DNA of 64,000 nucleotides, from contig JANPRD010000004.1 in assembly GCA_024699715.1 (NCBI GenBank), forward strand, positions 1 through 64,000, in the 5' to 3' direction. The notes under the pieces are model-generated. The model saw only the letters and a list, made by a program, of their open reading frames with translations, had not been told where the DNA came from and ran no database searches. The first letter of the stretch is position 1; each line of letters opens with the position of its first letter. Positions 13,167-35,983 of this stretch are shown in pieces. Origin of the DNA: Candidatus Methanophagales archaeon. GTDB taxonomy: Archaea; Halobacteriota; Syntropharchaeia; Alkanophagales; Methanospirareceae. Both the position numbers and the translations under genes were made by a program.

Positions 13167-13934
13167 CTATTGCATGAGAGGGGCGACGAGAAATAATATG
13201 ATATTTATTAGTCCGTGTGAGATAGAGATTCCGTATATTGTTCCCGTCCTTTCTCGCACGATTGAGAACAGGAAGCCGACGAAAAATGCGAATATACAGT
13301 CAAGAATGGAGAGATTTCCCATGTGAAGCACGGCGAAAATTGCTGAAATAAGCAATATACCGCTCCATTTGCTCATCACTCTCGTTGCATTATACTGGAG
13401 TAAACCTCTGAAAGTGAGCTCTTCCACGAGACCTGTGCATATAATTAGGATAAGCGATGCACCGATGAAAGAGTGATGCGGTAAGGGTTCAGGCTTCAAA
13501 ATTTGATATTCTGCAAATCCGAGAGGAACAGCAAGAGGAATCACTCCGCATTCAAGCGGTATGTTCCGCAGTATCGGCTTTGAAAACCCCACATCCCCGA
13601 GTTTAATGCCCTGCAGGTATATGCATGTGAATATTGCGATGAATATTGGTATTGAAATCAACATAAACCATGATATCCGGCTGAAATGGGTGAGAGGCAT
13701 GGATATACTTAGGATGCGAATGAGTGGAGCAAGGACAAGAGACATGATGAATGCCGATAAATTTCTATCTGATGTGAGTGTTGAATGTATAAGTGTTGCG
13801 AAGAGTATGAAAATATGAGCTGTTATTCCTATTCTTGCATCTTCCACAGTCAATATCTCAGCAAGTGCTATCAAAAACAAATAGGTGATTCCTACATAGA
13901 TGCCAAGGCGGGATGGCTTAATGTGATTCCACAT
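13167..13934 (-). CDS. CPBP-family intramembrane metalloprotease
   Basis: A polytopic protein with the three CPBP (Abi/CAAX protease) motifs: VEELTFRG, AVLHMGN and ISHGLINI, all in C-terminal helices. These proteases cleave near or inside the membrane; in archaea the substrates are unknown. The start at 13934 (MWNHIKPSRLGIYVG) has a GAGGTAGG ribosome-binding site; a longer frame begins at 14000 but adds a charged, low-complexity leader. It lies upstream of the cohesin gene's end on the same strand, separated by about 120 bases on the far side. Confidence 0.82.
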   Translation of the reverse strand: MWNHIKPSRLGIYVGITYLFLIALAEILTVEDARIGITAHIFILFATLIHSTLTSDRNLSAFIMSLVLAPLIRILSISMPLTHFSRISWFMLISIPIFIAIFTCIYLQGIKLGDVGFSKPILRNIPLECGVIPLAVPLGFAEYQILKPEPLPHHSFIGASLILIICTGLVEELTFRGLLQYNATRVMSKWSGILLISAIFAVLHMGNLSILDCIFAFFVGFLFSIVRERTGTIYGISISHGLINIILFLVAPLMQ

Positions 13935-14122
13935 ACCTACCTCTCCCGTGCCTTCTCTTCTACCGACGGTTTCTGTTTCGCCTCCCTTCAACGAAATCAC
14001 CTTTTCCCGTGAGAGAATTCAAACTTCCTCGGTGGTGTCCTCACGAAGCACTTCTCTCAGCGATGTGAATTCACAACTACACAACTCACCCGCCTTTTCG
14101 CAACTTAAAAGGAGAATTTATA

Positions 14123-14575
14123 TCACCTTCCCCCTTTCTTAATTGACTTTTTCCTCCACAGCATCATTAGTAATATTATCATGATTGCCATTATCATAAT
14201 TGCTATCAGAATGAAAAGAGTTAGCTCCTCTTTCTTCCTTTCTTTTATCAAGATTTGCCCATTCCTTACCGTTATCTGCGTTCCATTTCTTATCTCATTC
14301 ACTTCCAGTCTCAATTCACCCGCAGTGTGCGCTCTTCCTATTGCTTTCATTTTTATTTCCGCTAATTTTACCGTTCCTTTAAGATGTTTATTTGTATATG
14401 CGACCATTTCAATGCGTCCATTTGAGATATTATATGAGAAATTTTCATAATCTCCCGCATATACTTCCTCTACTTCCACTATTGGTGGAACAAAGAGCGT
14501 CAAGTTCGCATACTTAACGCCATCTCCCGTGATTAATATCGGAACTTCAGCATATTCCCCCTCCTCAATCGTCAC
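14123..14575 (-). CDS. Second cohesin domain and membrane anchor of the cohesin protein (fragment 2)
   Basis: This frame carries a cohesin-type beta-sandwich (IEEGEYAEVPILITGDGVKY through RNGQILI) and then a strongly hydrophobic helix (LFILIAIMIMAIMIILLMML) followed by a basic tail. The frame upstream of its ATG is open and Pro/Ser/Thr-rich (SPSPALTPAFSSPTPSPSPS), continuing the linker of the adjoining fragment at 14565-15302. The two are one gene with a single shift in the linker near 14750. The full protein would be signal peptide, cohesin 1, stalk, cohesin 2, transmembrane anchor. Confidence 0.6.
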   Translation of the reverse strand: MTIEEGEYAEVPILITGDGVKYANLTLFVPPIVEVEEVYAGDYENFSYNISNGRIEMVAYTNKHLKGTVKLAEIKMKAIGRAHTAGELRLEVNEIRNGTQITVRNGQILIKERKKEELTLFILIAIMIMAIMIILLMMLWRKKSIKKGGR

Positions 14576-15302
14576 ATTTTCTATTTGAATAATAATTTCT
14601 CGGCTCTCTAAGGAGGGCGAAAGTGAAGGGGGAGACGGCGAAGGTGAGGGCGTTGGAGAAGAGAATGCAGGCGTAAGTGCGGGAGATGGAGAGAGGGCAG
14701 GTGTAGTAGCGGGGGAAGTAGTGGGGGATGGAGAAGGAGGGATGTTGGTGCGGGTGAGAGGTGGTGTTAGGTGAAGGTGAGGGAGTCGGCGTGGTGTCGG
14801 TGTCGGAAGGGGAGCTGGTGGAAGTGGGGGAAGCGGATGGAGTAGGAGATGCTGTTGGAGAACTTACGGAAATAAAACCGTTTAATGCCGTTGCAGGGAC
14901 TTTCTTCCCCTCATTATCCTTCAGTGTCTCTATCTCCAAGTTTAATGGAGAATAGCCTTCATTTTTTGCTTCTACATACAAATTCGCCACAATTCCCTCC
15001 TTTAACCCCTCCTCTCCTGTTTGAAAAGCAACTATTTTTATCCTCCCAGGAGTATTATTGCATACAAGCCGGTCAAAATCACCCTCACTCACCGAGACAA
15101 CACGCACAATATCTCCATCATAAGTGACAACTATCGTGGCGCAGCTTATCTCTTCATCTGCATCAATTGTTATTGGAATATTGACATGTTCTCCCACAGT
15201 TATTGTGGCATTACCAATTTTAACAGATGCGGGTGAGGCGCTTACTACTACCGCAGAGAACAAGATGAACAGTAAGAAAATGACTATCCTCTTCATTTTC
15301 AC
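14565..15302 (-). CDS. Cohesin-domain surface protein, N-terminal part (fragment 1)
   Basis: A signal peptide (KMKRIVIFLLFILFSAVVVSA) is followed by a cohesin-like domain at residues 25-145: SVKIGNATITVGEHVNIPIT, ATIVVTYDGDIVRVVSV and PLNLEIETLKDNEGKKVP. A Pro/Ser/Thr stalk comes next. After about residue 180 the frame turns into an unconvincing sequence because the true stalk continues in the frame of 14123-14575. Cohesins bind dockerins; a dockerin protein is encoded two genes upstream. The start overlaps the preceding gene's stop by four bases, indicating translational coupling. Confidence 0.68.
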   Translation of the reverse strand: MKMKRIVIFLLFILFSAVVVSASPASVKIGNATITVGEHVNIPITIDADEEISCATIVVTYDGDIVRVVSVSEGDFDRLVCNNTPGRIKIVAFQTGEEGLKEGIVANLYVEAKNEGYSPLNLEIETLKDNEGKKVPATALNGFISVSSPTASPTPSASPTSTSSPSDTDTTPTPSPSPNTTSHPHQHPSFSIPHYFPRYYTCPLSISRTYACILFSNALTFAVSPFTFALLREPRNYYSNRKCDD

Positions 15303-15673
15303 CCGTAAAGTTTAAATGCTGGTATCCAATCTTCATATCTCCTCCCGTTTACATCCACAAATCCTACACATCTAATCTTCCCTACATCCGTTTCTAATTC
15401 ATTTGTGTGATGAATCTGTGGGTAGGAACCTGTTTTCATCATTATATTATATGTCTCATAAGGCATTAAGATGACTGTTCTGTTGAAAGAAATGTTCATC
15501 CAGTCATCCTCATATCCTTTCCATGATGCTTCAGCACACCATGTTGCATTCCAAATAAGAGCATATTCAGTATGACCGCCTGTTCTTTCGCAGGGATAAA
15601 TAGTATCTCCCCTCAGCATTATTATAGATGACATTGCCAACAACATATATGTCAGTAAAATTATCCGCTTCAT
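15299..15673 (-). CDS. Small secreted protein of the cohesin-dockerin operon
   Basis: A 124-residue protein with an N-terminal signal segment (KRIILLTYMLLAMSSIIML) and four to five Cys and Trp residues in a short mature part (YPCERTGGHTEYALIWNATW, GKIRCVGFVDVNGRRYEDW). I do not recognise the family. It overlaps the dockerin gene's stop (15670-15673) and the cohesin gene's start (15299-15302) by four bases each, so all three are almost certainly made from one transcript. It may be a third structural or accessory component. Confidence 0.6.
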   Translation of the reverse strand: MKRIILLTYMLLAMSSIIMLRGDTIYPCERTGGHTEYALIWNATWCAEASWKGYEDDWMNISFNRTVILMPYETYNIMMKTGSYPQIHHTNELETDVGKIRCVGFVDVNGRRYEDWIPAFKLYG

Positions 15674-16185
15674 TTCAACTCCTCATATCCGGATATTCCA
15701 GCGATATATCTCGCAAGATAGACACAATCGTAAGCATCAACAATTCCATCTCCGCTGACATCTGCAACTTTCTCCTCCAAATCATATCCTTCTATACCCG
15801 CTATCCATCTCGCTATATGCATGTAATCAGCGCTGTCAATCACGCCATCTGCATTCACATCACCATTCAGGAATATGCGAACTTTTTTCTCCTTTCCTCC
15901 TGCATTTATCCGGAATTCTCCCGGTGGAACGCCTTTCGTGCCCACTTCCAGCTCAAAACGACCTTCAGAATCGGCAGTCACCTTTATTGATGTCTTCACG
16001 ATTAAATGCACAGCATCCGCACCTTCCAAGGCATCTCCATATACCTTAATGTCCTTCGCCCCATGGATGTCTATGGGTTTACCATAGAAATCCGCTGGAA
16101 ACGAGACAGAAATTGTGGCAGTGCCGTTCGTTGCATTCAGAGGCCCTTCAAGAGGATATTCAATTGTCTGCCAGCCAGAATACAA
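15670..16185 (-). CDS. Dockerin type I module of a secreted protein (fragment 2)
   Basis: The last 65 residues are a complete type I dockerin: GDVNADGVIDSADYMHIARW and DVSGDGIVDAYDCVYLARY, two EF-hand-like calcium loops each followed by a helix with an ARW/ARY end. An Ig-like beta-domain with FYGKPIDIHGAKDIKVYGDA and GKEKKVRIFLNGDV precedes it. The open frame continues the protein of 16160-16501 after a one-base shift near 16170. Dockerins dock onto cohesins, two of which are encoded downstream in the same operon. Confidence 0.75.
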   Translation of the reverse strand: MYSGWQTIEYPLEGPLNATNGTATISVSFPADFYGKPIDIHGAKDIKVYGDALEGADAVHLIVKTSIKVTADSEGRFELEVGTKGVPPGEFRINAGGKEKKVRIFLNGDVNADGVIDSADYMHIARWIAGIEGYDLEEKVADVSGDGIVDAYDCVYLARYIAGISGYEELK

Positions 16186-16859: not shown

Positions 16860-17041
16860 TGAATACTCTTCCCCCTCGCCCCTGCCGCAGCGAACCCCCC
16901 AACGGAGGCAGGTTGTCTCCACGGCTGAAGCCGGGAGATTCTCGGTCTGTTAGGCCTTCATAACATAACCTTCATTCTACTAAATTCTAGTGGCAGCCCC
17001 TGCTATGGGCGTTGTCCATAGCCCACTTGAGTATGTCACAT
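16860..17041 (+). mobile_element. IS200/IS605-type 3' end relic
   Basis: The plus strand reads GGCAGGTTGTCTCCACGGC then TGAAGCCGGGAGATTCTCGG, a sequence style seen at the 3' end of TnpB genes of IS605-family elements. A perfect 7-bp hairpin follows (GCTATGG-7-CCATAGC), and the sequence ends in GAGTATGTCAC, like an IS605 right end. No transposase gene remains. The terminal bases at 17036-17038 provide the stop codon of the minus-strand gene at 17036-17563, so the element appears to have inserted at that gene's 3' end. Confidence 0.45.
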
Positions 17042-17563
17042 TATCCTTCCCATGCCTTTACCCTTTCTTATGCTAGAAGCTGCAAATAGGCATAAAAGCA
17101 CTACCAGAAGAATTCTCCCCCAGAGCGACATTACCGGAACTTTCTTTCCTTCTGAAACCCCTACTGAAGTAACATTTACTCTCTTGCTGACGCTTACCCC
17201 TCCCGGATGCCCTTTATGCCATGACGCCTTTACAACTACTTCCACGGGTGCTGTTTCATTAACTGATTCCAGAATCAAATTTGTGTATGCTTTCCCATTC
17301 GCATCTGTTTGCGCAATACTTTTTGTCAAATAATATCCGCTTTCTTCACCTTTTACTTCCTCTATTTCAAATTCAATTACAAACCCCTCTGGTTTGGTAA
17401 GGTTTCCTTCCCACTTCTTTACTGTTGCTATTACTGTTATATTTGCATTAGAATTAACAGTTGTGGAATTGACAGTTGACAATGTCATCTCTGTTACTTT
17501 TGGTGGGGGAGGCGGTGTTAACTTGCAAACTGAAGGTGTTGGGAACGTTAATAATAATATCAT
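17036..17563 (-). CDS. Secreted Ig-like (Big_1) protein with VP/IPTL-type sorting tail
   Basis: A 175-residue protein with an invasin-like Big_1 domain: TVNSNANITVIATVKKWEGN, IAQTDANGKAYTNLILES and VVKASWHKGHPGG. It ends with a tripartite sorting signal: KVPVMSLWG, a hydrophobic helix (RILLVVLLCLFAASS) and the basic RKGKG. This resembles the IPTLxxWG tail processed by exosortase H; an archaeosortase of that type is encoded at 26164. The N-terminus is a poor signal peptide, and the frame extends upstream through a better one (KKIISSSIFIFILM) lacking a standard start. The stop lies inside an IS605-like end. Confidence 0.65.
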   Translation of the reverse strand: MILLLTFPTPSVCKLTPPPPPKVTEMTLSTVNSTTVNSNANITVIATVKKWEGNLTKPEGFVIEFEIEEVKGEESGYYLTKSIAQTDANGKAYTNLILESVNETAPVEVVVKASWHKGHPGGVSVSKRVNVTSVGVSEGKKVPVMSLWGRILLVVLLCLFAASSIRKGKGMGRIM

Positions 17564-17670: not shown

Positions 17671-19480
17671 TTATTTTTTCTTTTTATTTATGCTTAAAAC
17701 CATCAGCAGACTTAGCAGCCCTATTAACGCAGCAAGACCAATTGGCGTAAGCACTGGAACCTTTTTACATTCTACATACACGAATGCATCGTCCTCATCC
17801 GAAACAGGACCAGAACACCAGCTACTATTCGCCGTCACATACGCAACATCCCTGAGCATTCCGCATGCTTCCGGGTCAACGGTCGCATTGAAGGTAATCT
17901 CAAATGATTCCCCTGGCTCCAGCGGTTCGAATTGTGTTAAGTTTCCAGGAGTTGTGTTATAACCCCACCAGTGGATTGTGAAGTGTATCCATCCACTCGG
18001 ATCAATCGAACTTAAAAGTCCATCTTCGTGTGGAGTTGCTGCATCTGCATATGTCAGTCCCTTATTCGCTTGCTTAAGCGGTAGTACATCCGTCACTGAA
18101 AGATTCGTGAGGTTTACGCTTCCCGTGTTCGTAATGATCAATGTAAATGTCACTGTCTCGCCGCGTTCCGCACTTATGCTATTCTTACCATTTACCAGCT
18201 TCTCGATGCGTATCCCTATCCTCGCCTTCACCCCGAAGTCATGCCTCGCTTTCCCTCCCGCTGGAACTGTCACATTTCCCTCTGTTGCGCTCCCTCCATC
18301 ATCGTCGCATTTCGGGCTTAGATGCGCTGGAAGTTCACTTGCATTATACCTCACCGTATAATTCCCCGCAGGTATATTTGTGAACTTGTAATATCCACTT
18401 GCATTTGTCTTTGTCGTGTTTACAACCGTAGAATCATTTAGAAGTTCAACCGTAACGTTTGCAACTCCCGGCTCAGGATAATCCGGATTGTATTCGCAGT
18501 TACAGCTCCTGTCCTCGTAAATGTATCCCTCCAATTCGCCCGTCGTGATTTCGTAAAAACTGAATTTAGCGTCATCGGTAATATTAACAAGTGCGATAGT
18601 TTCCTGATATTCTTTAGGGTTACAGCCGGTTGGGTCAACTATCTCGAACCACTTCTTATTTTTTACTCGCACTGTGACATTTGCGCTTTCTGCATTACAG
18701 ACCAAAGTGGCTTTGGCTATTCCATTAACAGTTTTATTCTCATAGACGCTTCTTCCTGATTCGTTGAAATAACCGGCGTCTGTTTCAAATACAACGGTAA
18801 CCTCTTCTCCAACGCCTCCAAGGCAGTAATCAACCTTAGCTTCAAGCTCTACTGGCTCTCCCTTGACATAACTTCCAGTCTTTGGACTGATTGTGATGTT
18901 GTACGGGACGCTCTTGTTTATCGATTCATTGATAAACTCACAAGCTAACGGATGTGCAGTGCAGTTGGGTATCCAATTTGACTCCCAGCCAGGGTCACCT
19001 GGAGTTGCTGTATGATTATATCGGGGCGTGCCGAGTCTGCAGAAAGTTTCGTTTATGTACCAGAAATACCATACTGCGGATTGCCCCGCAGAGACGTTAT
19101 CGCAATGATCAGGGTCAATTGTCCAGTTATTCAATATATATGCGATTGAATTGTTCTTACAGGTTGGTTCCGCAGTGTATTTTGATGCATTGAACGTATC
19201 CCCTTCACTGAGGTACACTGTGAGGTTTATGCAGAGTGCATTGTATGTATCTCCATCAACCGTGAGTTGGAATAGGTATGTAGGTAGATTATCATAATAG
19301 CCCCAGCTTGTTCCATTGTAAAACCAGCCTGCTGTCGTTTTACACCGCAGTAAAACTCAAAACGTTCACATGATGGTCGCACGGCGGCTGTGCCGAAGCA
19401 ACTGAGCTAAGCGAAGCAATGCATAAAAGGGCTGCTAATAGGGCTACCACTGTCGCTGTTTTCCTTATCATCTTATCCAT
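17671..19480 (-). CDS. Thioester-domain adhesin with SdrD-B/DUF11 domains and sorting tail
   Basis: The gene starts at 19480 with a GGAGGTGT ribosome-binding site and a signal peptide (MIRKTATVVALLAALLCIAS). One base shift near 19330-19345 moves it into the main frame (ORF 17671-19218). Domains in order: a TQXA/thioester-like region with the Cys of NALCINL (codon 19231-19233) and the Gln of AGQSAVWYFW (codon 19081-19083); Cys-rich Ig-like segments; a carboxypeptidase-regulatory/SdrD-B-like domain (PGVANVTVELLNDS, NASGYYKFTNIPAGNYTVRY); a DUF11 repeat (GETVTFTLIITNTGSVNLTN); and a tail KKVPVLTPIG, hydrophobic helix, KKKK. Gram-positive thioester adhesins bind host surfaces covalently. The Cys-Gln bond here is inferred. 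Confidence 0.68.
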
Positions 19481-19774: not shown

Positions 19775-19894
19775 ATGACCGGGAAAATGGGTGCGAAGGG
19801 CGAAAGCAAAAAAGGCGTAATAGGGCTGGCGTTAGTGGCGATGATGATTGCTTCGATATTCGGAGTAGTTGCGCCGACGGCGATTGCGAGGTGA
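19775..19894 (+). CDS. Signal peptide of the S-layer-like protein (fragment 1)
   Basis: A perfect ribosome-binding site (TAGGAGGTGA, 19766-19775) precedes the ATG. The 39-residue frame is a textbook signal peptide: a basic start (GKMGAKGESKK), a hydrophobic core (GVIGLALVAMMIASIFGVV) and APTAIA, then a stop. After a one-base shift the mature protein follows (TIRIYGAPDKVAPLRYDNW, then FDPTVIPSDSITF). It matches the NVTLRIYGGANNAPVRYSSY and FNPTVIRKDSITF segments of the downstream repeat module. A second shift near 20115-20140 leads into the frame starting at 20106. It is the 5' end of one large gene running to 23855. Confidence 0.62.
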   Translation: MTGKMGAKGESKKGVIGLALVAMMIASIFGVVAPTAIAR

Positions 19895-20105
19895 AACCAG
19901 CCAGGTCCAACGCATTCAAATTCGACCATAAGAATATACGGTGCACCGGATAAGGTGGCTCCTCTCAGGTATGACAATTGGACACAGCCGTTCGACCCAA
20001 CGGTAATACCCTCTGATTCTATAACATTCAACCCCGCAATAATAGAGGAAGTAGGGGAGGCGGATCAGAATAATAGTGATATAAAGACATATCTGAGGAT
20101 GTGGT

Positions 20106-21365
20106 ATGAGCCTGCAGCATCCGTTCTCGCAAGGAACTAATCCAGCAATTATAACTGAATACACATATATGATAATTCATAACAAGCACAAGACGCCTTG
20201 GCATGCGAAAGAAGGTGACACTCTCGGATACCTGCTCCCGATAGTTGAAGTGCCAAATCAAACGGGATTGGGTGGCTATGAGAACACTGGTGTTGGAATA
20301 TATCCAGCAAATCCAAACGCACTGCGTATTGCAGAAATAGACGGAACAACAGCTCCTTATGGCAAGACAGTGAACGGCACGATAGCAATAGAGAAGAAAT
20401 ACTGGCTTGAGTCTGGAAAAACAGTTCAATTCATGGACTACAAAGTGAAATACATGTGGACAGGGCTGTATGGAAGTCCGGTTGTCCTGGCGATTTATTA
20501 CGCAGGGAATGTAGAAGATGAATATCTGGGTCTCATTGAGATAGGCGAGAATGAAACAAAGTATATAAAGAGAGACGGCTCAACAAGCGATTCATTTGAT
20601 AGACATCATCCGTTCTATGTGCACTTCCAGTTCAAGACGCAAGATCACAGGGTAGGGATAGATGTGGGCAGGTATCTATGGAATTGCAGTATCTTCTATG
20701 TTAATGGCGTGAGATACGAGGTTCCTGCGGTAGAAGTGCTGGACACGGATGGAGATGGCACTGCGGATGCGTTTAAGTATATCACGATAAGAGCGATTCT
20801 GCCGAAAGCACCAACTGACGGACCTGATGAGCTAAGAGATGATGGGGATGCAGTGTCATCAATATGGATAGACACTATTAAGCCGTATGAGAGAATACCA
20901 GTTTTGCCGCCGTTCAACATGGAACACAAGATAATAGATGACATAAATGTTCCGCTCTGGGCTCCGCTCAAGCACTTAGACAAATGGCCAGAAGGAGACC
21001 CGAATGGACTCTCGGTGAGGAATACTTCCCGTGTGCGAGAGCGCTACTTAACACAGCAGTATCCGCCTGAGGCATGGCTGAAATACTTCAGGGCGGTGCC
21101 AATAGGTGCTGCGCCGGTTACTGACCCGGAGCTATGGGAAGGACCTTACTATCCAGGCGACCCGAGAGTTAACTGGGACGAGTGGATTGCTTGGGATATA
21201 TCGGCGCGTATCATTGATGACGTTCCCGCGCTAAACATGAGTTACATAGCGGAGGCGCAGGAGGAGAGGTATTCGACGAACCTGCTGGAGAAGTTGATGG
21301 AAGAGAGGAGATGGGTCAGAGATCTTAGAGAAGTGGGCGAAGTTCGACATCTGGTCGAGACCTGA
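20106..21365 (+). CDS. S-layer-like surface protein, module A (fragment 2)
   Basis: The frame holds most of the first of two homologous modules of about 480 residues. Landmarks shared with module B are YMIIHNKHKTPWHAKEGDT, IEKKYWLESGKTVQFMDYK, VYLG-type YLGLIEIGENE, VHFQFKTQDHRVGIDVGR and LWAPLKHLDKWPEGDPNG. The opening codons are not the true start; the module begins near 19900 in another frame. The frame ends at a shift near 21320, after which KWAKFDIWSRPDDYTEFILP continues in the next fragment. I do not match it to a named S-layer family; module duplication, the signal peptide and promoter strength suggest a major surface layer glycoprotein. Confidence 0.6.
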   Translation: MSLQHPFSQGTNPAIITEYTYMIIHNKHKTPWHAKEGDTLGYLLPIVEVPNQTGLGGYENTGVGIYPANPNALRIAEIDGTTAPYGKTVNGTIAIEKKYWLESGKTVQFMDYKVKYMWTGLYGSPVVLAIYYAGNVEDEYLGLIEIGENETKYIKRDGSTSDSFDRHHPFYVHFQFKTQDHRVGIDVGRYLWNCSIFYVNGVRYEVPAVEVLDTDGDGTADAFKYITIRAILPKAPTDGPDELRDDGDAVSSIWIDTIKPYERIPVLPPFNMEHKIIDDINVPLWAPLKHLDKWPEGDPNGLSVRNTSRVRERYLTQQYPPEAWLKYFRAVPIGAAPVTDPELWEGPYYPGDPRVNWDEWIAWDISARIIDDVPALNMSYIAEAQEERYSTNLLEKLMEERRWVRDLREVGEVRHLVET

Positions 21366-21402
21366 TGACTACACGGAGTTTATACTGCCTGAGTGTCCGG
21401 AT

Positions 21403-22983
21403 GTGGTGGTGAGCTGGAGGACAAATCAAACGGATCACACGATGAGCTTGCCTGGAGATTATTTCATAATGACTAATCTTACCGTTGCTCCAGATCAGGT
21501 GCCGGAGAATGCTTCGTTCAACAGAGTGGCGTTCTGTTATGACCAGACGAATGAAACTGCGAAACTGGATGGTAATGACTGGTGGGTTGAACCTGGCATG
21601 GACGGAAAAGACCTCTACATCAATTCGGCTTATGGCCCAGGTTGTAAGAGTCCGTCGTGTTATGCCCAGAACGTAACGTTGAGGATTTACGGTGGAGCGA
21701 ATAACGCACCGGTAAGATATTCAAGTTATGAGCAGGTATTCAACCCGACAGTGATAAGGAAAGATTCCATCACGTTTGATGCAGCGATAATGGAGGATGT
21801 GGCGAAGGCACAACAAAAAGACACGGACGTGAAAGTTTATCTGCGCACTTGGTATGACACTGCATATCACTATGAGCAAGAAGATGCGCCTTCAGTGGTA
21901 ACAGAGACGACATACATGCTGATAGACAACAAGCACAAGAAGCCATGGCACGGTTCAGCAGGCGATACATGGTTCCCATTCCCGATTGCGGAGAATGAAT
22001 CAACGGAACAGATAGGGCTGGAGCTGTTCGAGAATGTTAACGGGACGCCAGCGAGACCGGGTGTTGTGAAGCTTGCGAAGGTCGAGGGCACGCCTGACGA
22101 TCCACACGGTCTTAACAAGACAGTAAACGGGTCTATATGGATAGAGAAGAAATACTTCTTAACCAACAATTCGGGACGGATTCAGTTCCTTGACTACAAG
22201 TTCGAGTATGTCACTACGAAGTGGAATGGAACAGTGGCAGTTGTGGATGTCTGGTATGCGGGTAACAAAGAAGATGTCTATCTTGGAAGGAAGGAGTTCA
22301 ACGAGAGCGTGACCTACTGGCTCAAAGATGACGGGAGTGTAACGACAACTGGACCGGAGCCGCCGAGAAGGACGACATATGTGCACTTTGAGTTCAAGAC
22401 GCAGGAGCATGCGATAGCAATAGACGTCGGCAAGGTGCTGTATAACTGCAGCGTGTTCTACGTGGACAGCGTGAGATACGAGGTTACCGCAGTAGAGACC
22501 CTTGACTTAAACGGAGATGGAAAGTGTGAGAAGTTCAAGTTCATCACGCTCCGAACACCATTCCCGAAAGATCCGACAGGTGCACCGTTCTGCACAGAGA
22601 AACTACGTGATGATGGGCGTTATGCATCTTCGATATGGATAACTAAGATACCGCCATGCCATCCGATACCGGTGCTGCCGCCGTTCAACGAAGTGCATTC
22701 AATCGTGGATGACACGGATGTGGTGCTATGGGCGCCATTGAAGCATATGGACAAGTGGCCACAAGGAGATCCACATGGTATCCCAGGTATAGAATGGTTC
22801 GGAAATGCGAGTGAGAAATTCATGACGATGCAGAGACCACCGCATGCGTGGTTGAAGTTCTTCCGTGCAGTGCCGATAGGCGTGCCTGGTATGCCAACCG
22901 ACTGGCAGTTATGGGAGACTATGGAGGGCCGTTCTATCCGCCAGAGAACCCATGCTCTGATCCAGAGTGGCAGCACTGGATAG
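21403..22983 (+). CDS. S-layer-like surface protein, module B (fragment 3)
   Basis: A 526-residue frame with the end of module A (GDYFIMTNLTVAPDQVPENA) and nearly all of module B, from NVTLRIYGGANNAPVRYSSY to PPHAWLKFFRAVPIG. It carries many N-X-S/T glycosylation sites. A DLNGDGKCEKFKF segment resembles a calcium loop, matching DTDGDGTADAFKY in module A. The last 18 residues are an artefact of a shift near 22925; the true continuation (GPFYPPENPCSDPEWQHW) is in the frame starting at 22848. Confidence 0.65.
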   Translation: MVVSWRTNQTDHTMSLPGDYFIMTNLTVAPDQVPENASFNRVAFCYDQTNETAKLDGNDWWVEPGMDGKDLYINSAYGPGCKSPSCYAQNVTLRIYGGANNAPVRYSSYEQVFNPTVIRKDSITFDAAIMEDVAKAQQKDTDVKVYLRTWYDTAYHYEQEDAPSVVTETTYMLIDNKHKKPWHGSAGDTWFPFPIAENESTEQIGLELFENVNGTPARPGVVKLAKVEGTPDDPHGLNKTVNGSIWIEKKYFLTNNSGRIQFLDYKFEYVTTKWNGTVAVVDVWYAGNKEDVYLGRKEFNESVTYWLKDDGSVTTTGPEPPRRTTYVHFEFKTQEHAIAIDVGKVLYNCSVFYVDSVRYEVTAVETLDLNGDGKCEKFKFITLRTPFPKDPTGAPFCTEKLRDDGRYASSIWITKIPPCHPIPVLPPFNEVHSIVDDTDVVLWAPLKHMDKWPQGDPHGIPGIEWFGNASEKFMTMQRPPHAWLKFFRAVPIGVPGMPTDWQLWETMEGRSIRQRTHALIQSGSTG

Positions 22984-23855
22984 GGTGCGATGTGTCAAAG
23001 CGTATCATTAGAGGAGTAGAGCCGCTGGAGTTCTGCTGGCTGAGCGAGGGCAAAGAGCCGAGGTTCTCAACGAACTTGCTGGAGGTCCTGAACGAGAAGA
23101 TAACATGGGAAGAACCTATTGAAGAATCCTGGACGAAGTATGACATCATGACGATGCCAGACGAATACACAGAGTTCAGATTGCCGGTAATACCCTCGAT
23201 AGACCCAGAAGTGTATATTGGTGGTGACTTCCAGGATACGTTCCACCCAGACACAAGGCTATATCCAGGAAGCTACCTGATAACGACTTCGTTCTTAGCT
23301 CCGAATGCGAATGGAACCTTGAACCCCAATCAGTCATGGGACGAGATAAACAGGTTTGCATTCACGTTCAATGCAAGTGATGGCAGAGGCATATACATGG
23401 AGGAGGACCCGGTAATCGAAGCAGAGGAGGGAACACCAACAATCACGCTGAAGAAAGGCATTAATTATGTCTCACTACCGGTAGAGCCAAATGGTAGCGC
23501 AACTCCTGAGGCGATATTCGGCGCTGACTGCGAGGTTTGGGCATACGATGCCGGCACTGGATGGTATCATCCATCAGTGTTAGAACCCGGCAAGGGATAC
23601 CTCGTCAGGAGTCCAGAGGATAAAACGGTAGTAATAGAGGGAACAACAGTGGATATTTCGTGGGAGACAATCAAGGAAGGTCTCGCAGAGGGATGGAACC
23701 TGGTCGGTTCTGACAGCGATGGCATAGTGATTGGAGATAAAACAGGACTCGACGTCTTTGGCTGGAATGAGAACACGGAATGGGATCAACTGGAAGAAGG
23801 CGATACGCTGAAGAGCGGAGAGGCATACTGGATACTCAAACTGCCAGAGGAGTAA
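22848..23855 (+). CDS. S-layer-like surface protein, C-terminal part (fragment 4)
   Basis: The genuine part begins near 22930, with module B ending in KYDIMTMPDEYTEFRLPVIP, then GSYLITTSFLAPN. A C-terminal module of about 130 residues follows: TLKKGINYVSLPVEPNGSAT, FGADCEVWAYDAGTGWYHPS, EGWNLVGSD and DTLKSGEAYWILK. The same module closes the protein at 23967-24869, and a related one closes those at 28084 and 31573. No membrane helix or sorting tail is present, so attachment probably relies on lattice contacts or the end module. Confidence 0.65.
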   Translation: MVEVLPCSADRRAWYANRLAVMGDYGGPFYPPENPCSDPEWQHWIGCDVSKRIIRGVEPLEFCWLSEGKEPRFSTNLLEVLNEKITWEEPIEESWTKYDIMTMPDEYTEFRLPVIPSIDPEVYIGGDFQDTFHPDTRLYPGSYLITTSFLAPNANGTLNPNQSWDEINRFAFTFNASDGRGIYMEEDPVIEAEEGTPTITLKKGINYVSLPVEPNGSATPEAIFGADCEVWAYDAGTGWYHPSVLEPGKGYLVRSPEDKTVVIEGTTVDISWETIKEGLAEGWNLVGSDSDGIVIGDKTGLDVFGWNENTEWDQLEEGDTLKSGEAYWILKLPEE

Positions 23856-24874: not shown

Positions 24875-25685
24875 ATGAGGGAGAAAAGAGCGGTAAGGGG
24901 GAGGATAACTGCGATAGCAGTAATTGCAATTGCCTTTTTTGCCTTTTCTGATGTTGTGACGCTGGCACAGCCGAATATAGTGGAGCTTAGAGATTTGATA
25001 AAGGTGAGTGTTGAACCTGCGAGCATACCTGCTGATGGAGTCTCAACATCAAGGATAGAAATCGCTGTTTTCTCGCCTGAGATGCTCGGGGGAGGACCCG
25101 CAGCTCATACGGAAGTTTATGTTTCAACGGATTTGGGGACGCTCAGGGATGCTGAGAACGAGAGCAATTCAGGCAGCGAAATCACATTATTTACGAATGA
25201 CACCGCTATCGCAGTCGCTCTATTATCTGCTGATGAACCAGGAAAAGCAAATATCACAGTGAGAGCACCATCAATAGAAGAAGCAATAAACCTCGAGCTC
25301 GGAAATGAATCAACAGTCTATATCGTCATAAACAGCACAACTATAACACTTCTGGAGCCTGAAGTGACTCCATCACCTACTGAAGTAACTCCATCACCTA
25401 CACCGCCTACACCTACGCCATCTCTGACGCCTACGCCTACACCTACCCCCTCTCTGGTGCCCTCTCCGTCTCCTCTAACACCATCACCTACACCATCATT
25501 GCCTACTACACCTACACCACCGCTACCAGGGACACCATATGGGGACGCCTACGATTTCACCTTTACTAACACCAACAGCAACGCCTTCGCCAAGTCCAAC
25601 ACAAAAGCCATTTGGCTTTGAAGCAGTTTTCACAATTATTTCGCTATTCGTGGTAGCATATATCGTGCTGAGAAGAGGAGTATAG
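24875..25685 (+). CDS. Secreted Big_1-like protein with Pro/Thr stalk and PGF-CTERM-like tail
   Basis: The gene begins five bases after the previous stop. A signal peptide (ITAIAVIAIAFFAFSDVVTL) and the duplicated Ig-like domain are followed by about 70 residues of Thr/Pro repeats. The first frame stops at 25621. A one-base shift within the stalk (about 25520-25550) gives TPTATPSPSPTQKPFGFEAV, a hydrophobic helix (FTIISLFVVAYIVL) and RRGV, ending at 25685. This is a PGF-CTERM-like signal, the substrate type of archaeosortase A, which removes the tail and attaches a lipid in haloarchaea. The variant PFGF at the motif is unusual. Confidence 0.65.
24965..25347 (+). repeat. 383-bp near-identical duplication, copy 2
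   Basis: The partner of 24027-24409. The few differences include A-to-T and T-to-C changes that alter single residues (ADGVSTSR for ADGVSASR, AVFSPEM for AVFLPEM). Confidence 0.85.
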
Positions 25686-26142: not shown

Positions 26143-26163
26143 ATGGTAAGGAGGAGGGAGGAG

Positions 26164-26727
26164 ATGGAGAAAAGAAGAAAAGTAGGAAAAAGAAAGAAGG
26201 TTGAGCGGGACATTACCCATAGGAATATAACCATAGTAGAAAGGGCGAGAGAGATGGAAGAAGCATTAAAATACGTTGCGCTTTTCTTAGCTTTCTGTCT
26301 TGCTTTTTATCTTGTTTATTATTTTCTCAGGTTGCGATGTTCATTATCATTATTAAATGACATGACAGCGCTCATTTTGGGCGGTATTTTCTCGTTATGC
26401 GGTGCGAATGTGATATTAAAAGGAGCAACACTCTCTATTAATGGTTTTGTATTGGAGATAATAGATGAATGCACGGCGGTATTTTCCTCAATTGTTTATT
26501 GCTCAGCAGTATTAGCGTATCCAACGACATTAAAAAAGAAATGCATAGGTATTGCTTTTGGCGTGCCTGCTCTTTATACGATAAACATCATTCGCCTTTT
26601 CATATTGACGCTTATCGGTATTCATCATCCTGAGATGTTTGAATTCGTGCACGTGTATCTCTGGCAAGCTTCTTTTATCATATTCGTGGTCGTGATCTTC
26701 CTTTTATGGCTCAATTCGATAAGATAG
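26164..26727 (+). CDS. Exosortase/archaeosortase family enzyme (exosortase-H-like)
   Basis: A polytopic transpeptidase-like enzyme of about 188 residues. The Cys-Arg-His triad of the family is visible: Cys in IDECTAVFSSIVYCSAVLAY, Arg in YTINIIRLFIL, and His in FEFVHVYLWQASFI. AYPTTLKKKCIGIAFGVPAL between the first two is also typical. The short length and the CTAVF context are closest to exosortase H, which processes IPTLxxWG tails. Two surface proteins here (17036-17563 and 17671-19480) carry related VPVMSLWG and VPVLTPIG tails. The start at 26164 is preferred because a GGAGGAGGGAGGAG tract precedes it; a longer frame starts at 26143. Confidence 0.82.
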   Translation: MEKRRKVGKRKKVERDITHRNITIVERAREMEEALKYVALFLAFCLAFYLVYYFLRLRCSLSLLNDMTALILGGIFSLCGANVILKGATLSINGFVLEIIDECTAVFSSIVYCSAVLAYPTTLKKKCIGIAFGVPALYTINIIRLFILTLIGIHHPEMFEFVHVYLWQASFIIFVVVIFLLWLNSIR

Positions 26728-26734
26728 GGAAAAA

Positions 26735-27295
26735 ATGAAAGGTAAAGCGACTGAAAAGCAAAAAGAGAATACGAATGAAGAGGAGGGAGAGGGGGAGATA
26801 AAGAGAGGGGAGCTTAAGTTAAATGTGAGTTCAAGACAGATTATAATATTTCTGATAGAATTTATGGCTGTTTCTGTGGTATTTTTATGTATATGGTATT
26901 ATATTGGTGAGTTTTATCAGTGCGTTGTTTTCTTCTTCGCTAAAAATATTTTGATTGCGATGGGATATACTCAGTTGCAAATATCAGCTGTGAGGTTATC
27001 ACATGCATATCTGGTGAATTTCAATTTGGTACCTCTTTTTGCGTTGGCGATAGCAACACCAAAGATGCCTCTGAAGTCGAGAATTGAGATGCTCGCTGTA
27101 GGCATCCCTCTTATATTTCTTCTGCACATTTTTGATTTGGTGGCGCATTTCCCGATGTATTTTTATGGCTCGGAAATTGCGAAACTTGTTGTATATTCAA
27201 TAGGAGTTGGCAACGTGGCAATGCCTTTTGTTATATGGTTCGTATTTTTCGTTAAAAACTATATTAAGGTCGAAAAAGAAAAACTTTATGTATGA
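26735..27295 (+). CDS. Exosortase-associated membrane protein
   Basis: A 186-residue protein beginning with 30 charged residues and then four to five hydrophobic helices (IIIFLIEFMAVSVVFLCIWY, VNFNLVPLFALAIATP, VGIPLIFLLHIFDLVAHF, VGNVAMPFVIWFVFFV). It starts seven bases after the archaeosortase stop. The VNFNLVPLFALAIATP segment and the gene pairing resemble the partner membrane protein commonly encoded beside exosortase H. Its molecular role is not known. Assignment rests on context more than on motifs. Confidence 0.62.
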   Translation: MKGKATEKQKENTNEEEGEGEIKRGELKLNVSSRQIIIFLIEFMAVSVVFLCIWYYIGEFYQCVVFFFAKNILIAMGYTQLQISAVRLSHAYLVNFNLVPLFALAIATPKMPLKSRIEMLAVGIPLIFLLHIFDLVAHFPMYFYGSEIAKLVVYSIGVGNVAMPFVIWFVFFVKNYIKVEKEKLYV

Positions 27296-31548: not shown

Positions 31549-31974
31549 AATAGAAGGAGGTGGGAAGGAAAGGTGGGAAGGAAAATGAAAGGGATTGGAA
31601 AGAAGGGGGCAAGTATGGTTGTCGCAGTGGCTTTGATGGCGATGCTAACGGCAGGGCTGATGTCTGCATCTGCGCAAATGCCGTTGACTATCAAGGGTAA
31701 TGTCACATACATGAATAATGGGACGCGTGTGCCAGCTGGTTGGACTGTTAATATAAGCGATTTGACAAAGGGCTGGAGCATTTCAACAACAACTGAAGAT
31801 ACACCTCCTGTTGTGGATTTCAACTATAAGGCGGAGAAACCGATAGATTATGAGGTGTCAGCGGGCGATATCTTCGAGGTTTATGCAGAGGATCCAACTG
31901 GAACGTTCTATGGAAGCACCTCTCATACTATCACACAGAGTGAGATCGATGCTGGGCTCGTTAGGATAGATGTG
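31069..31974 (+). repeat. 906-bp perfect direct repeat, copy 1
   Basis: This block is repeated without any visible difference at 32329-33234 (offset 1260 bases). It covers the end of the gene at 28084, the intergenic bases, and the first 134 codons of the gene at 31573. The units are separated by 354 bases unique to the middle gene. Confidence 0.9.
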
Positions 31975-32808
31975 GAGGTCTATGAGGATCACACTCCTCC
32001 AGTGATTGAATTTATTCCGCCTACACCCGAGAATAATACAAAAATAACTGAGAACTATATTATCATTAACGTATCGGTGGTGGATGAGAGCGATATATCA
32101 ACAGTGATACTCAACTGGAATGGCGAAAATGAAACGATATTCTGTGGAGGACTATATATCCAATCCAGTGTTGTGAATTTCTACAATTGGACCAAAACGA
32201 ACTTATCTGACGGAACTTACGAATACAAGGTATATGCAAATGACACTTTTGGCAATATGGGCGTTAGTGAAACGAGAGTAATTACCGTAGAGACAGAAAA
32301 AACATTCAATATAACATTAAATCAGAAATGGAACCTAATATCACTTCCGCTAATACCGGAAAACACGTCGATAGATGAAATATTCAAGAATGCAACGGGT
32401 GGAGATAGAGTATATGCGTATTCCAACGGGTCATTCACGAGCAGTGAATATTATGAGGGGTATGGCTGGTATCCGAAGATGGAGATAATTCCTGATAAGG
32501 GTTACTGGTATTATGCGGTTTCTGCATACAATGCTACGATAACGGGGAAGGCTGCTGTTGAAAACAGGACGGTTCCGATGTCAGCGGGTTGGAATTTGGT
32601 CGGTTATACGAGTCTTAGAACGAGACCTGTCGGGGAAGTGATAAATGAGCCACATGGAGGAGATAGGATATATGCTTATATCGAAGGAGCGTTTGAGAGC
32701 AGTGAATACTATGAAGGCTATGGTTGGTATCCAGAGATGGATATGGAGCCGGGGAGAGGATATTGGTATTACACTGATACGCCTTTTGTGTGGGAGTATT
32801 CTCCATGA
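31573..32808 (+). CDS. Chimeric surface protein (signal and N-domain plus WNL module)
   Basis: A 411-residue secreted protein. Signal peptide (MVVAVALMAMLTAGLMSASA). The N-terminal domain (MPLTIKGNVTYMNNGTRVPA, TPPVVDFNYKAEKPIDYEVS) is identical to that of the next gene. A unique Ig-like segment follows (HTPPVIEFIPPTPENNTKIT, YKVYANDTFGNMGVSETRV). The C-terminal WNL pair is identical to that of the preceding gene. It is therefore built from the head of one neighbour and the tail of the other. Start is GTG 31573 or ATG 31585, after an AGGAGGT site at 31555-31561. Confidence 0.8.
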   Translation: MGRKMKGIGKKGASMVVAVALMAMLTAGLMSASAQMPLTIKGNVTYMNNGTRVPAGWTVNISDLTKGWSISTTTEDTPPVVDFNYKAEKPIDYEVSAGDIFEVYAEDPTGTFYGSTSHTITQSEIDAGLVRIDVEVYEDHTPPVIEFIPPTPENNTKITENYIIINVSVVDESDISTVILNWNGENETIFCGGLYIQSSVVNFYNWTKTNLSDGTYEYKVYANDTFGNMGVSETRVITVETEKTFNITLNQKWNLISLPLIPENTSIDEIFKNATGGDRVYAYSNGSFTSSEYYEGYGWYPKMEIIPDKGYWYYAVSAYNATITGKAAVENRTVPMSAGWNLVGYTSLRTRPVGEVINEPHGGDRIYAYIEGAFESSEYYEGYGWYPEMDMEPGRGYWYYTDTPFVWEYSP

Positions 32809-33234
32809 AATAGAAGGAGGTGGGAAGGAAAGGTGGGAAGGAAAATGAAAGGGATTGGAAAGAAGGGGGCAAGTATGGTTGTCGCAGTGGCTTTGATGGC
32901 GATGCTAACGGCAGGGCTGATGTCTGCATCTGCGCAAATGCCGTTGACTATCAAGGGTAATGTCACATACATGAATAATGGGACGCGTGTGCCAGCTGGT
33001 TGGACTGTTAATATAAGCGATTTGACAAAGGGCTGGAGCATTTCAACAACAACTGAAGATACACCTCCTGTTGTGGATTTCAACTATAAGGCGGAGAAAC
33101 CGATAGATTATGAGGTGTCAGCGGGCGATATCTTCGAGGTTTATGCAGAGGATCCAACTGGAACGTTCTATGGAAGCACCTCTCATACTATCACACAGAG
33201 TGAGATCGATGCTGGGCTCGTTAGGATAGATGTG
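32329..33234 (+). repeat. 906-bp perfect direct repeat, copy 2
   Basis: Identical to 31069-31974. It covers the end of the gene at 31573, the spacer and the beginning of the gene at 32833. Confidence 0.9.
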
Positions 33235-33696
33235 AGTGTTAAAGAAAAAATAGCACCAACAACAAACGTGACGGCGCCACCCACTCTTTGGCCAGGTAAG
33301 CCAAACGAGACGACAATACCCTCGGGAACAATACTGCCCTGGACGAATGAGACAGTGAAGCTTTGGTTCTTTCGCACCGATAATGGTGGCAGCGGTGTTG
33401 CTTATACTAATCTATCTCTGGCGGCGGAGTCGGAAACAGACACGTTGAATGTAACAATCAGCAACAACTCATGGGCAATGGACAGGACACTCAAGAAGGG
33501 AGAGAATGTGACGGTTCCATTCAACGAAATCTTCGGCGAATACTTCAACGTTACAATCAGCGAGGAATGTAACGCCACGATTGAGTATTATTCGGTGGAC
33601 AACGCTGGCAATTCTGAGACTCAAGACAGTGACTGTGAGAATAAAATATCCAACGACGGGCAATGTGAGCATAAACGAGATCATGTATGCGCCTAA
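32833..33696 (+). CDS. LTD/Ig-like surface protein, N-terminal part (fragment 1)
   Basis: It shares signal peptide and first domain with the gene at 31573, then diverges (KEKIAPTTNVTAPPTLWPGK, DNGGSGVAYTNLSLAAESE, ECNATIEYYSVDNAGNSETQ), an Ig-like segment. The last 25 residues are out of frame. The true reading passes by a one-base shift near 33610 into the fragment starting at 33581. It is the first of several fragments of one gene of about 1200 codons ending at 36452. Confidence 0.65.
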   Translation: MGRKMKGIGKKGASMVVAVALMAMLTAGLMSASAQMPLTIKGNVTYMNNGTRVPAGWTVNISDLTKGWSISTTTEDTPPVVDFNYKAEKPIDYEVSAGDIFEVYAEDPTGTFYGSTSHTITQSEIDAGLVRIDVSVKEKIAPTTNVTAPPTLWPGKPNETTIPSGTILPWTNETVKLWFFRTDNGGSGVAYTNLSLAAESETDTLNVTISNNSWAMDRTLKKGENVTVPFNEIFGEYFNVTISEECNATIEYYSVDNAGNSETQDSDCENKISNDGQCEHKRDHVCA

Positions 33697-34576
33697 TGAG
33701 GAATGGGGAGGTCAGTATAATGAGTGGATAGAACTCTACAACAAAGACGATAAAACCATTAATCTGGCTGGTTGGGAGATAGATGGCAAGGAAATACCTG
33801 ATGGAACGATCATACAGCCTCAAGGCTATCTAATAATTGCGAGAAACGATACTTCGTTTGCGGAGATATATCCGGGAGCTGTGTGCTCTGTGGTGAAAGT
33901 GAGTATAGAACTCAACAATGATGGGGAGGAGTTGTTCCTGAAAGATAGTGCTGGAAACGTTGTTGACAGCGTGAATTACACGTCTTATGCGAATAAAAAG
34001 CTTGGTAAGAAGAACGGAAAAACGCTTGAGAGGAATGAAACAGCATGGGAAGAGAGCATAAGGAATGGTGGCACTCCCTGTCAGCGCAACAGTGTGTTGC
34101 CGCCAACGTCGTTTGTGATAAATGGATATGTATTCTACGAAGATAACACTGCATGCAACAATCCGGCAGTGAAGATAACAAATGATAAGATAGGAGAATG
34201 GTTCGCCGAGAATTCAACAGATTCCAATTACTACATGCTCACACTCAAAAGCACGGCGGAGGTGATGGCGGGAGACACACTGCGGATTGATGCGAGCAGT
34301 CCTGATGGCACGCAAATCAATGTCACAACGTTCGTAGTTACGCAGGCAGATATAGATGAAGGAAGTGTGCAGATTAATATCACACTTGAACAGCCCAAGC
34401 TCAATGAGATAAAAGTTACGCCACAGTCTGCGGTTGTTACCGTGAACACAACCAAAGAGTTCATTGCTACCGCTTACGACCAGTATGGAAATCCGCTTGA
34501 AGGCGTGTTCATCTACTGGACAAGCACAAATAAGACAGTGGGAACTGTGAGTCCAGCACTTCCGAATATGTTGTGA
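33581..34576 (+). CDS. Surface protein with lamin-tail and Big_2 domains (fragment 2)
   Basis: From about 33640 this frame holds a lamin-tail domain: NVSINEIMYAPNEEWGGQYN, EWIELYNKDDKTINLAGWEI, QPQGYLIIARND. A carboxypeptidase-regulatory-like unit follows (FVINGYVFYEDNTACNNPAV), then a Big_2-like domain (IKVTPQSAVVTVNTTKEFIA, TAYDQYGNPLEGVFIYWTST). It breaks near 34560. After a shift, YVVTGPDGNATATFTARAPG continues the Big_2 domain toward the repeat region. LTD domains occur in secreted nucleases and adhesins; here the context is structural. Confidence 0.65.
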   Translation: MSIIRWTTLAILRLKTVTVRIKYPTTGNVSINEIMYAPNEEWGGQYNEWIELYNKDDKTINLAGWEIDGKEIPDGTIIQPQGYLIIARNDTSFAEIYPGAVCSVVKVSIELNNDGEELFLKDSAGNVVDSVNYTSYANKKLGKKNGKTLERNETAWEESIRNGGTPCQRNSVLPPTSFVINGYVFYEDNTACNNPAVKITNDKIGEWFAENSTDSNYYMLTLKSTAEVMAGDTLRIDASSPDGTQINVTTFVVTQADIDEGSVQINITLEQPKLNEIKVTPQSAVVTVNTTKEFIATAYDQYGNPLEGVFIYWTSTNKTVGTVSPALPNML

Positions 34577-34664
34577 CAGGACCAGACGGGAATGCAACAG
34601 CAACCTTCACCGCTCGTGCTCCAGGAAACACGACAGTGGTAGCAGTGAATCAGACCGATGCTGG

Positions 34665-35983
34665 ATGGATAATAGGATTGGCGAATGTTACTGTCATATG
34701 CCAACGGCACCTGGGCCTGAGATAGTGTCATATTATCCCACTGAGGAGACGGTGACGAACAAGGAGGGTGAATCAAGAGAGTTCAAAGTCAAAGCGAATC
34801 AGACCGTGAACGTGTCCTGGTACATTAATGGCTCATTGGTGCATGAGAACATCAGCGTACCTGCGTTCGTGAATGCAACATATACGAACACGAGCGCAGT
34901 ACCAGGACTCTGGAATGTGTCAGTGATTGTCGAAAACGAAAACGGAACCGATATGCACTCATGGATTTGGAATGTGACGGGTGTGGCAATAGTGGCGCCC
35001 CACCAAATATAACCGAGTGGTATCCGGTAGCTATCGAGATAAGCAACAACGCAGGAGAATCAAGAGAGTTCAAAGTCAAAGCGAATCAGACCGTGAACGT
35101 GTCCTGGTACATTAATGGCTCATTGGTGCATGAGAACATCAGCGTACCTGCGTTCGTGAATGCAACATATACGAACACGAGCGCAGTACCAGGACTCTGG
35201 AATGTGTCAGTGATTGTCGAAAACGAAAACGGAACCGATATGCACTCATGGATTTGGAATGTGACGGGTGTGGCAATAGTGCGCCACCAAATATAACCGA
35301 GTGGTATCCGGTAGCTATCGAGATAAGCAACAACGCAGGAGAATCAAGAGAGTTCAAAGTCAAAGCGAATCAGACCGTGAACGTGTCCTGGTACATTAAT
35401 GGCTCATTGGTGCATGAGAACATCAGCGTACCTGCGTTCGTGAATGCAACATATACGAACACGAGCGCAGTACCAGGACTCTGGAATGTGTCAGTGATTG
35501 TCGAAAACGAAAACGGAACCGATATGCACTCATGGATTTGGAATGTGACGGGTGTGGCAATAGTGGCGCCACCAAATATAACCGAGTGGTATCCGGTCAG
35601 CTATCGAGATAAGCAACAACGCAGGAGAATCAAGAGAGTTCAAAGTCAAAGCGAATCAGACCGTGAACGTGTCCTGGTACATTAATGGCTCATTGGTGCA
35701 TGAGAACATCAGCGTACCTGCGTTCGTGAATGCAACATATACGAACACGAGCGCAGTACCAGGACTCTGGAATGTGTCAGTGATTGTCGAAAACGAAAAC
35801 GGAACCGATATGCACTCATGGATTTGGAATGTGAGGAGCCCCTATGCAGTCGAACTAAGCGTTGAGCCGCCCGTGTATGTATGTGTGAGGCCGAATGAGA
35901 ATGCGACATTCAGGATTATCGTGAAGAACAATGGGACAAAGCCTGACAAATTCACCTCACAGTTGAAGCACCAGGAAATGTAA
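34665..35983 (+). pseudogene. Repeat section of the LTD surface protein, frame broken at each repeat
   Basis: The stretch encodes four copies of an Ig-like unit of about 95 residues (GESREFKVKANQTVNVSWYI, SLVHENISVPAFVNATYTNT, SAVPGLWNVSVIVENENGTD, MHSWIWNV), related to residues 160-255 of the protein at 28084. Each copy is intact, but every junction changes the frame, giving overlapping open frames 34665-35012, 34961-35296, 35248-35685 and 35663-35983. After the fourth copy, AVELSVEPPVYVCVRPNENA begins a further domain, which shifts again near 35965. Confidence 0.6.
34770..35834 (+). repeat. Four tandem copies of a 208-bp core with variable junctions
   Basis: Identical 208-bp cores start at 34770, 35057, 35341 and 35627. 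The junctions are 79, 76 and 78 bases long. Differences are confined to two spots: the GTGGCGCC(CC)ACC tract and CCGGT(C)AGC. None of the periods (287, 284, 286) is a multiple of three, although 285 would keep the frame. Confidence 0.9.

Follow-up and report, generated by a model that had tools for sequence, protein, structure and literature searches.

An exosortase-family gene in an ANME-1 genome

A pair of adjacent genes in an archaeal genome raises three questions: to which protein-sorting system the pair belongs, which proteins this system would act upon, and what the second gene contributes. The pair lies in a stretch of 64,000 nucleotides (hereafter the window; assembly GCA_024699715.1, contig JANPRD010000004.1, positions 1 to 64,000) from a Methanophagales (ANME-1) metagenome-assembled genome of 1.49 Mb in 16 contigs, whose estimated completeness of 80% leaves room for overlooked substrates. 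An initial annotation had described the pair as an exosortase H-like enzyme and its partner, and had proposed that an archaeal set of this kind would extend the exosortase H system. Our analysis indicates that the locus is quite probably dedicated to C-terminal protein sorting by a system of the ArtB/XrtH kind, which would operate by the mechanism proposed below. The first gene of the pair is:

26143..26727, + strand: exosortase/archaeosortase enzyme of the ArtB/XrtH group, 194 aa, with C110, R151 and H170 and matches to family models

An earlier proposed start, at 26164, is the second ATG of this same reading frame. The enzyme is an exosortase-family protein with a Cys-Arg-His triad, as the initial annotation had stated. 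It scored above the cutoffs of the superfamily models TIGR04178 (60.2 bits; cutoff 23) and PF09721 (35.8 bits; cutoff 25.7), matches that argue against a chance open reading frame, and C110, R151 and H170 are invariant across 29 aligned relatives. In a joint comparison of enzymes and partners, the three catalytic columns were occupied by C, R and H in all 25 enzymes. A search by sequence found no solved relative (one match was at chance level), and comparison of the enzyme fold with the PDB gave no match.

The enzyme is not archaeosortase A (ArtA), a comparison that had been suggested as a check: it scored 23.9 bits on TIGR04125, below the cutoff of 75, and a separate ArtA is encoded elsewhere in the same genome (contig 14, 75248-75955, - strand; 164 bits). 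ArtA-like matches are present in many ANME-1 genomes. A domain survey from 2017 described ANME-1 as lacking archaeosortases A and C and S-layer domains, and as making no S-layer (PMC5244752); despite the reported absence of ArtA, the source genome contains both ArtA and an ArtB/XrtH-type enzyme.

Scores on the ArtB and XrtH models

The window enzyme scored 110.5 bits on the ArtB model (TIGR04144), below the curated cutoff of 150, and 95.1 bits on the XrtH model (TIGR04177), above the curated cutoff of 86; the NCBI rule would thus name it exosortase H. This pattern is general among the main-clade ANME-1 enzymes. The eight others that were scored reached 95.6-120.9 bits on ArtB and 86.2-110.7 bits on XrtH, so that all nine exceed the XrtH cutoff, by 0-25 bits, and fall below the ArtB cutoff, with the ArtB score being the higher in eight of them. 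When the scored ANME-1, f5 and f17 sequences are taken together, 14 of 14 reach only 95-121 bits on ArtB. Genuine ArtB enzymes from three complete genomes (L084, L085 and L088), which appear to be Archaeoglobaceae-like partly on the basis of these model scores, obtain 231-316 bits on the ArtB model and 79.6-84.2 bits on the XrtH model, just below its cutoff. Because genuine ArtB scores this high, the XrtH cutoff hardly separates ArtB from XrtH, and passing it is therefore weak evidence.

An enzyme tree separated genuine ArtB, a fused type (see below), a second ANME-1/f17 group and the main ANME-1 sequences; this tree was built without bacterial XrtH, has weak deep branches and very long outgroups, and decides nothing on ArtB versus XrtH. 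The distribution of the enzyme within Halobacteriota looks vertical. A search for XrtH returned only XrtM from plasmids, and nothing from phages and viral contigs. XrtM of Methylomonas plasmids (TIGR04300) is similar in that a small exosortase is followed by a small membrane-protein gene, which on the Methylomonas koyamae plasmid pLM6 (L121), a plasmid with conjugation genes, encodes a 203-aa protein. It differs in that this next gene has no significant match to the ArtB-type partner: a likeness of the 203-aa protein to the partner was sought and not found, and no NCBIfam model matched it.

The partner gene and the layout of the locus

The second gene of the pair is:

26735..27295, + strand: partner membrane protein, 186 aa, a probable catalytically dead exosortase homolog and distant relative of NF041730

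In the window, 7 bp separate this gene from that of the enzyme. Under a strict rule, 26 of 29 contigs have a partner gene that follows the enzyme at a distance of no more than 300 bp; in the three exceptions it is an overlapping reading frame (L088), a stop-to-stop frame that overlaps the enzyme frame (L174, on the G049 contig), or a gene about 0.7 kb further along (the G035 contig). Enzyme and partner are fused in four proteins of 337-410 aa (L081, L083, L191 and L192). The tail profile described below found no significant VPxLTPxG tail in the genome that encodes one of these fusions (G008, L083), and fused enzymes may act on a different signal. A C-terminal C2H2 zinc-finger-like tail (CPxCG...HI..xHG) was observed in 14 of 27 partner sequences, namely the partners of L002, L032, L078, L079, L080, L082, L086, L087, L089, L090 and L025 and the fused L081, L191 and L192; the window partner lacks it.

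The suggested resemblance to the exosortase H partner survives as a distant likeness. The model of the XrtH-associated protein (NF041730; cutoff 35) was weakly matched by 11 of 23 partner members, over the same model stretch (about 90-131) wherever coordinates were printed. The window partner itself scored 9.7 bits, and the best printed scores among the partners of relatives were 17.9-19.0 bits (E about 0.001), all well short of an assignment to that family.

In each of the three genuine-ArtB genomes, the enzyme gene is immediately preceded by one whose product carries a VPxxxP-CTERM tail (25.9, 39.7 and 39.8 bits for L084, L085 and L088; cutoff 30) and immediately followed by one that encodes a homolog of the window partner. 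The same triplet of VP-tailed protein, enzyme and partner occurs in ANME-1 contigs (L073-L076 and L035-L038). In the window, the enzyme-partner pair is intact, and 8-9 kb separate it from the VP-tailed genes, which are on the opposite strand. Further upstream, the relatives encode a PGF-CTERM protein and then a giant secreted protein, both of which have homologs in the window:

24875..25685, + strand: Ig-like protein with a PGF-CTERM-like tail; a frame break, then the end ...QKPFGFEAVFTIISLFVVAYIVLRRGV
19802..23837, + strand: giant secreted surface protein gene, in several ORFs in the window; conserved upstream of the enzyme in relatives
L073:10093-14811, L035:2060-6808, L039:3812-8092 and L072:11235-15416: relatives of the giant protein, upstream of the enzyme

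The Ig-like protein is likely a substrate of ArtA, not of the ArtB/XrtH-type enzyme; its homolog at L073:9229-9954 ends in a PGF-CTERM domain (PF18204, 43.8 bits). The giant protein of the relatives is a repeated, secreted protein of about 1400-1580 aa, with a VWA insert in some, and its comparison with the PDB gave no match. Among ANME-1 genomes, it was found in 13 of the 17 that have a main-clade enzyme and in 1 of the 34 that do not (p = 6e-8), and we consider it a candidate surface-layer protein of this ANME-1 group.

Frame breaks recur in window genes that are clearly homologous to those of relatives (17671-19480, 19802-23837 and 24875-25685). These breaks, which affect the signal peptide of a candidate substrate, the PGF tail and the giant gene, suggest uncorrected indels in a long-read assembly. 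Elsewhere in the window, 31573-35983 (+ strand) holds tandem, near-identical copies with frame breaks, in which ORFs of 411 and 287 aa have a common start and Ig units are repeated at 34665-35983; these copies reflect either a recent duplication of a surface-protein gene or assembly errors. At 13167-14000 (- strand) lies a gene for a CPBP/Rce1-type intramembrane protease with matches to myxosortase-like models (MrtS, 47.7 bits; cutoff 130), which could be a second sorting protease.

Candidate substrates and their tails

Two proteins encoded in the window carry VP tails:

17671..19218, - strand: candidate substrate 1, an SdrD_B and DUF11 surface protein; VPxxxP tail at 17674-17763
17036..17563, - strand: candidate substrate 2, a small Ig-like secreted protein; tail at 17057-17143

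Substrate 1 ends in KVPVLTPIGLAALIGLLSLLMVLSINKKKK, where the motif VPVLTPIG precedes a hydrophobic stretch and a basic end. A signal peptide (MDKMIRKTATVVALLAALLCIASLSSVASA) starts at 19480 in a different frame, and the gene probably spans 17671-19480 with a frame break. Substrate 2 ends in KVPVMSLWGRILLVVLLCLFAASSIRKGKGMGRIM, with VPVMSLWG, again followed by a hydrophobic stretch and a basic end. The distances of the two genes to the enzyme gene are about 8.4 and 9.0 kb, respectively, and a cohesin-domain gene and a dockerin-domain gene (14565-15302 and 15670-16185, - strand) adjoin them. We considered, and rejected, direct orthology between the window VP protein and the VP protein encoded next to the enzyme in relatives: their alignment is confined to the tail and a DUF11-like region.

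The VPxxxP-CTERM model TIGR04143 alone returned nothing in the source genome even at E<=10, and gave no match to substrate 1 although this protein has VPVLTP at its C-terminus. We therefore built a custom tail profile (A1) from 12 tails. In a genome-wide search the two window tails were matched at E = 1e-16 and 4e-13 and the next sequence at 0.81. The two tails are thus far above chance, which upholds the claim of two tailed proteins in the locus, and they are the sole VP tails in this 80%-complete genome. The scan for further VP tails that had been recommended accordingly came up empty in the source genome itself; relatives have up to 14 (G023). Overall, profile A1 found matches in 48 of 99 genomes, and the C-terminal end was no more than 11 residues away in 66 of 71 distinct matches.

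The commonest residues of these tails are V-P-A/V-L-T-P-I-G, and the ANME-1 consensus, VPxLTPxG, is a form of VPxxxP; the WG-type tail of substrate 2 is an exception, not the rule. On TIGR04174, which describes the IPTLxxWG type (cutoff 20.5), the better window tail scored 13.7 bits. When NCBI models were applied to 35 tails, the midcut-by-XrtH model matched 30, VPxxxP 14 (E<=1) and IPTL 9, so by these models the ANME-1 tails stand in between ArtB-type and XrtH-type signals.

The tails accompany the enzyme. They occur in all 17 ANME-1 genomes with a main-clade enzyme versus 12 of 34 without (Fisher p = 3.5e-6), and in 7 of 7 versus 12 of 34 once the genomes that supplied seed tails are excluded (p = 0.002); as the genomes are related, there are fewer independent events than these p-values imply, and the 34 include some with divergent or fused enzymes and many that are incomplete. 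The co-occurrence is imperfect: ten ANME-1 genomes, including one that is 98% complete (G002), have tails and no detected enzyme of the ArtB/XrtH group.

The partner as a probable inactive homolog of the enzyme

Profiles of the partner and the enzyme, when compared with hhalign, were collinear over 136 columns with an E-value of 3-4e-6, and the score of 43.8 compares with at most 31.8 in 40 block shuffles and 17.1 for the reversed profile. The two HMMs also match reciprocally when searched against 4223 ORFs. The partner profile ranks enzymes highest, and once the enzymes themselves are set aside, the enzyme profile places partners near the top of its list, after XrtM, fragments of the enzyme and ArtA. 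Individual enzyme-partner HMM matches are weak, with E-values from 0.01 to 7e-6 where an unrelated ORF reaches 0.004. The partner half of the fused L192 was, on its own, matched by the enzyme profile at 6e-7, a pacearchaeosortase model matched 9 of 23 partners, and MAFFT aligned the enzyme and partner sets end to end unprompted. None of the 23 partners has the matching catalytic residue at any of the three columns. AlphaFold models (mean pLDDT 88.7 for the enzyme and 87.4 for the partner) have a similar order of helices, and a strand hairpin before the active site is present in the model of the enzyme, not in that of the partner. The partner fold found no match in the PDB. From this remote profile comparison, in which the sequences give good support, we consider the partner to be probably a distant, catalytically dead homolog of the enzyme from which the triad has been lost.

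Alternative explanations

The simplest alternative is that suggested by the initial annotation, namely that the enzyme is exosortase H of the IPTLxxWG type, perhaps acquired from bacteria. All nine scored main-clade enzymes lie above the XrtH cutoff, the midcut-by-XrtH model matches most tails, the partner weakly resembles the XrtH-associated protein, and substrate 2 ends in a WG-type tail. However, eight of the nine score better on ArtB, the XrtH cutoff is nearly reached by genuine ArtB as well, the enzyme is spread within Halobacteriota in a vertical-looking manner, the consensus tail is VPxLTPxG rather than IPTLxxWG, and the locus layout is that of ArtB; we therefore regard this alternative as improbable. 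Of the earlier XrtH assignment, the score above the cutoff stands, whereas the identity does not follow from it, and the idea of an archaeal extension of the XrtH system falls away since an archaeal counterpart is already known from NCBIfam models as ArtB/VPXXXP-CTERM (TIGR04144/TIGR04143). That the enzyme is simply a divergent ArtB, adding nothing to this known system, is unlikely, if a more serious contender. ArtB is its best model, the triplet layout is shared, the VPVLTP tail fits VPxxxP, and the two systems are alike in archaeal host phylum, enzyme size, triad and the order substrate, enzyme, partner, seen in Archaeoglobaceae-like genomes. Against this, all 14 scored sequences from ANME-1, f5 and f17 fall short of the cutoff of 150 and of the 231-316 bits of genuine ArtB, which forms its own branch in the tree; the tails of ANME-1 frequently fall short of the VPxxxP model, and an ANME-1 genome may have many substrates. 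On sequence evidence we conclude that the ANME-1 enzymes appear to form a third group in the ArtB/XrtH assemblage, rather than being bacterial XrtH in archaea, because their model scores are in between, their layout is ArtB-like and their VPxLTPxG tails are of the VPxxxP form. The likeness to XrtH/IPTL-CTERM (TIGR04177/TIGR04174, with the partner model NF041730, and NF033207) thus includes the enzyme score, the resemblance of the tails to midcut-by-XrtH and IPTL signals and the distant similarity of the partners; the archaeal host, the usually higher ArtB scores, the tail consensus and partner scores of about 19 bits at best set the ANME-1 system apart.

Two further alternatives concern the partner and the tails. 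The partner might share no ancestry with the enzyme and be an accessory membrane protein such as a chaperone or lipid-handling protein whose similarity reflects shared transmembrane composition. Both are indeed small multi-helix membrane proteins, and single HMM matches are no better than that of an unrelated ORF in some cases. Yet the reversed and block-shuffled controls score far lower, the alignment is collinear, the L192 partner half is recognised alone and the pacearchaeosortase model matches 9 of 23 partners, which makes a lack of relationship rather unlikely. The VP tails, for their part, could be ordinary C-terminal transmembrane anchors that remain uncleaved, since a lone hydrophobic helix that ends in basic residues would suffice for anchoring; the strict spacing of the motif in about 66 proteins of varied kinds, the strong co-occurrence with the enzyme and the gene neighbourhood render this very improbable.

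A proposed sorting mechanism

Gene content, the conserved triad, adjacency or fusion of enzyme and partner, their homology and the co-occurrence with tails are direct observations, and from these we propose the following mechanism. An N-terminal signal peptide would direct the export of surface proteins, and the C-terminal tail, consisting of VPxLTPxG, one hydrophobic helix and a basic end, would keep them in the membrane. Cys110, as nucleophile and aided by Arg151 and His170, would then sever the protein close to the VP..G motif, forming a thioester intermediate, and the new C-terminus would be passed to a membrane lipid amine, such that a lipid anchor replaces the helix. Cleavage, thioester formation and lipid transfer are modelled on ArtA of Haloferax volcanii, whose active-site residue is Cys-173 and whose substrates undergo C-terminal cleavage and lipid anchoring (PMC7157517). 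The ArtA/PGF-CTERM system presumably shares this chemistry, but represents another subfamily with another tail and other host genes, and the source genome has its own ArtA and a nearby PGF-type tail. In the papers searched, neither cleavage nor lipidation is reported for an ArtB or XrtH system. The partner most likely stays in a stable complex with the enzyme as a structural subunit that would help to hold or select the tail, a role suggested by its anatomy.

A broader reading combines two ideas: that ArtB/XrtH-type enzymes are heterodimers of an active exosortase and a dead homolog, joined in one chain in some archaea, and that in ANME-1 they process VPxLTPxG proteins tied to a giant protein that builds the outer layer. 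We put this combination forward only tentatively, as somewhat more doubtful than not.

Implications for ANME-1

For ArtB/VPXXXP-CTERM and XrtH/IPTL-CTERM, NCBIfam models exist and mentions in the full-text literature are few. New here are the tails in all main-clade ANME-1 genomes, the constant or fused partner, its probable nature as a dead homolog, and a candidate giant protein that tracks the enzyme. The system bears on how ANME-1 cells construct their surface and place proteins there; a genome study from 2022 found the position of ANME-1 cytochromes within the cell structure unclear and questioned the S-layer inference (PMC9012536). The S-layer protein of Methylomirabilis bears an IPTL tail (PMC8671808), a parallel for such tails on layer proteins. 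A sorting enzyme with a recognisable tail yields a list of surface-anchored proteins in uncultured methane oxidisers, and existing metaproteomes can be screened for the VPxLTPxG tail. Should the partner prove to be a dead exosortase, this would provide the first testable idea for the function of the unexplained ArtB/XrtH partner, and the natural enzyme-partner fusions are good targets for structural work.
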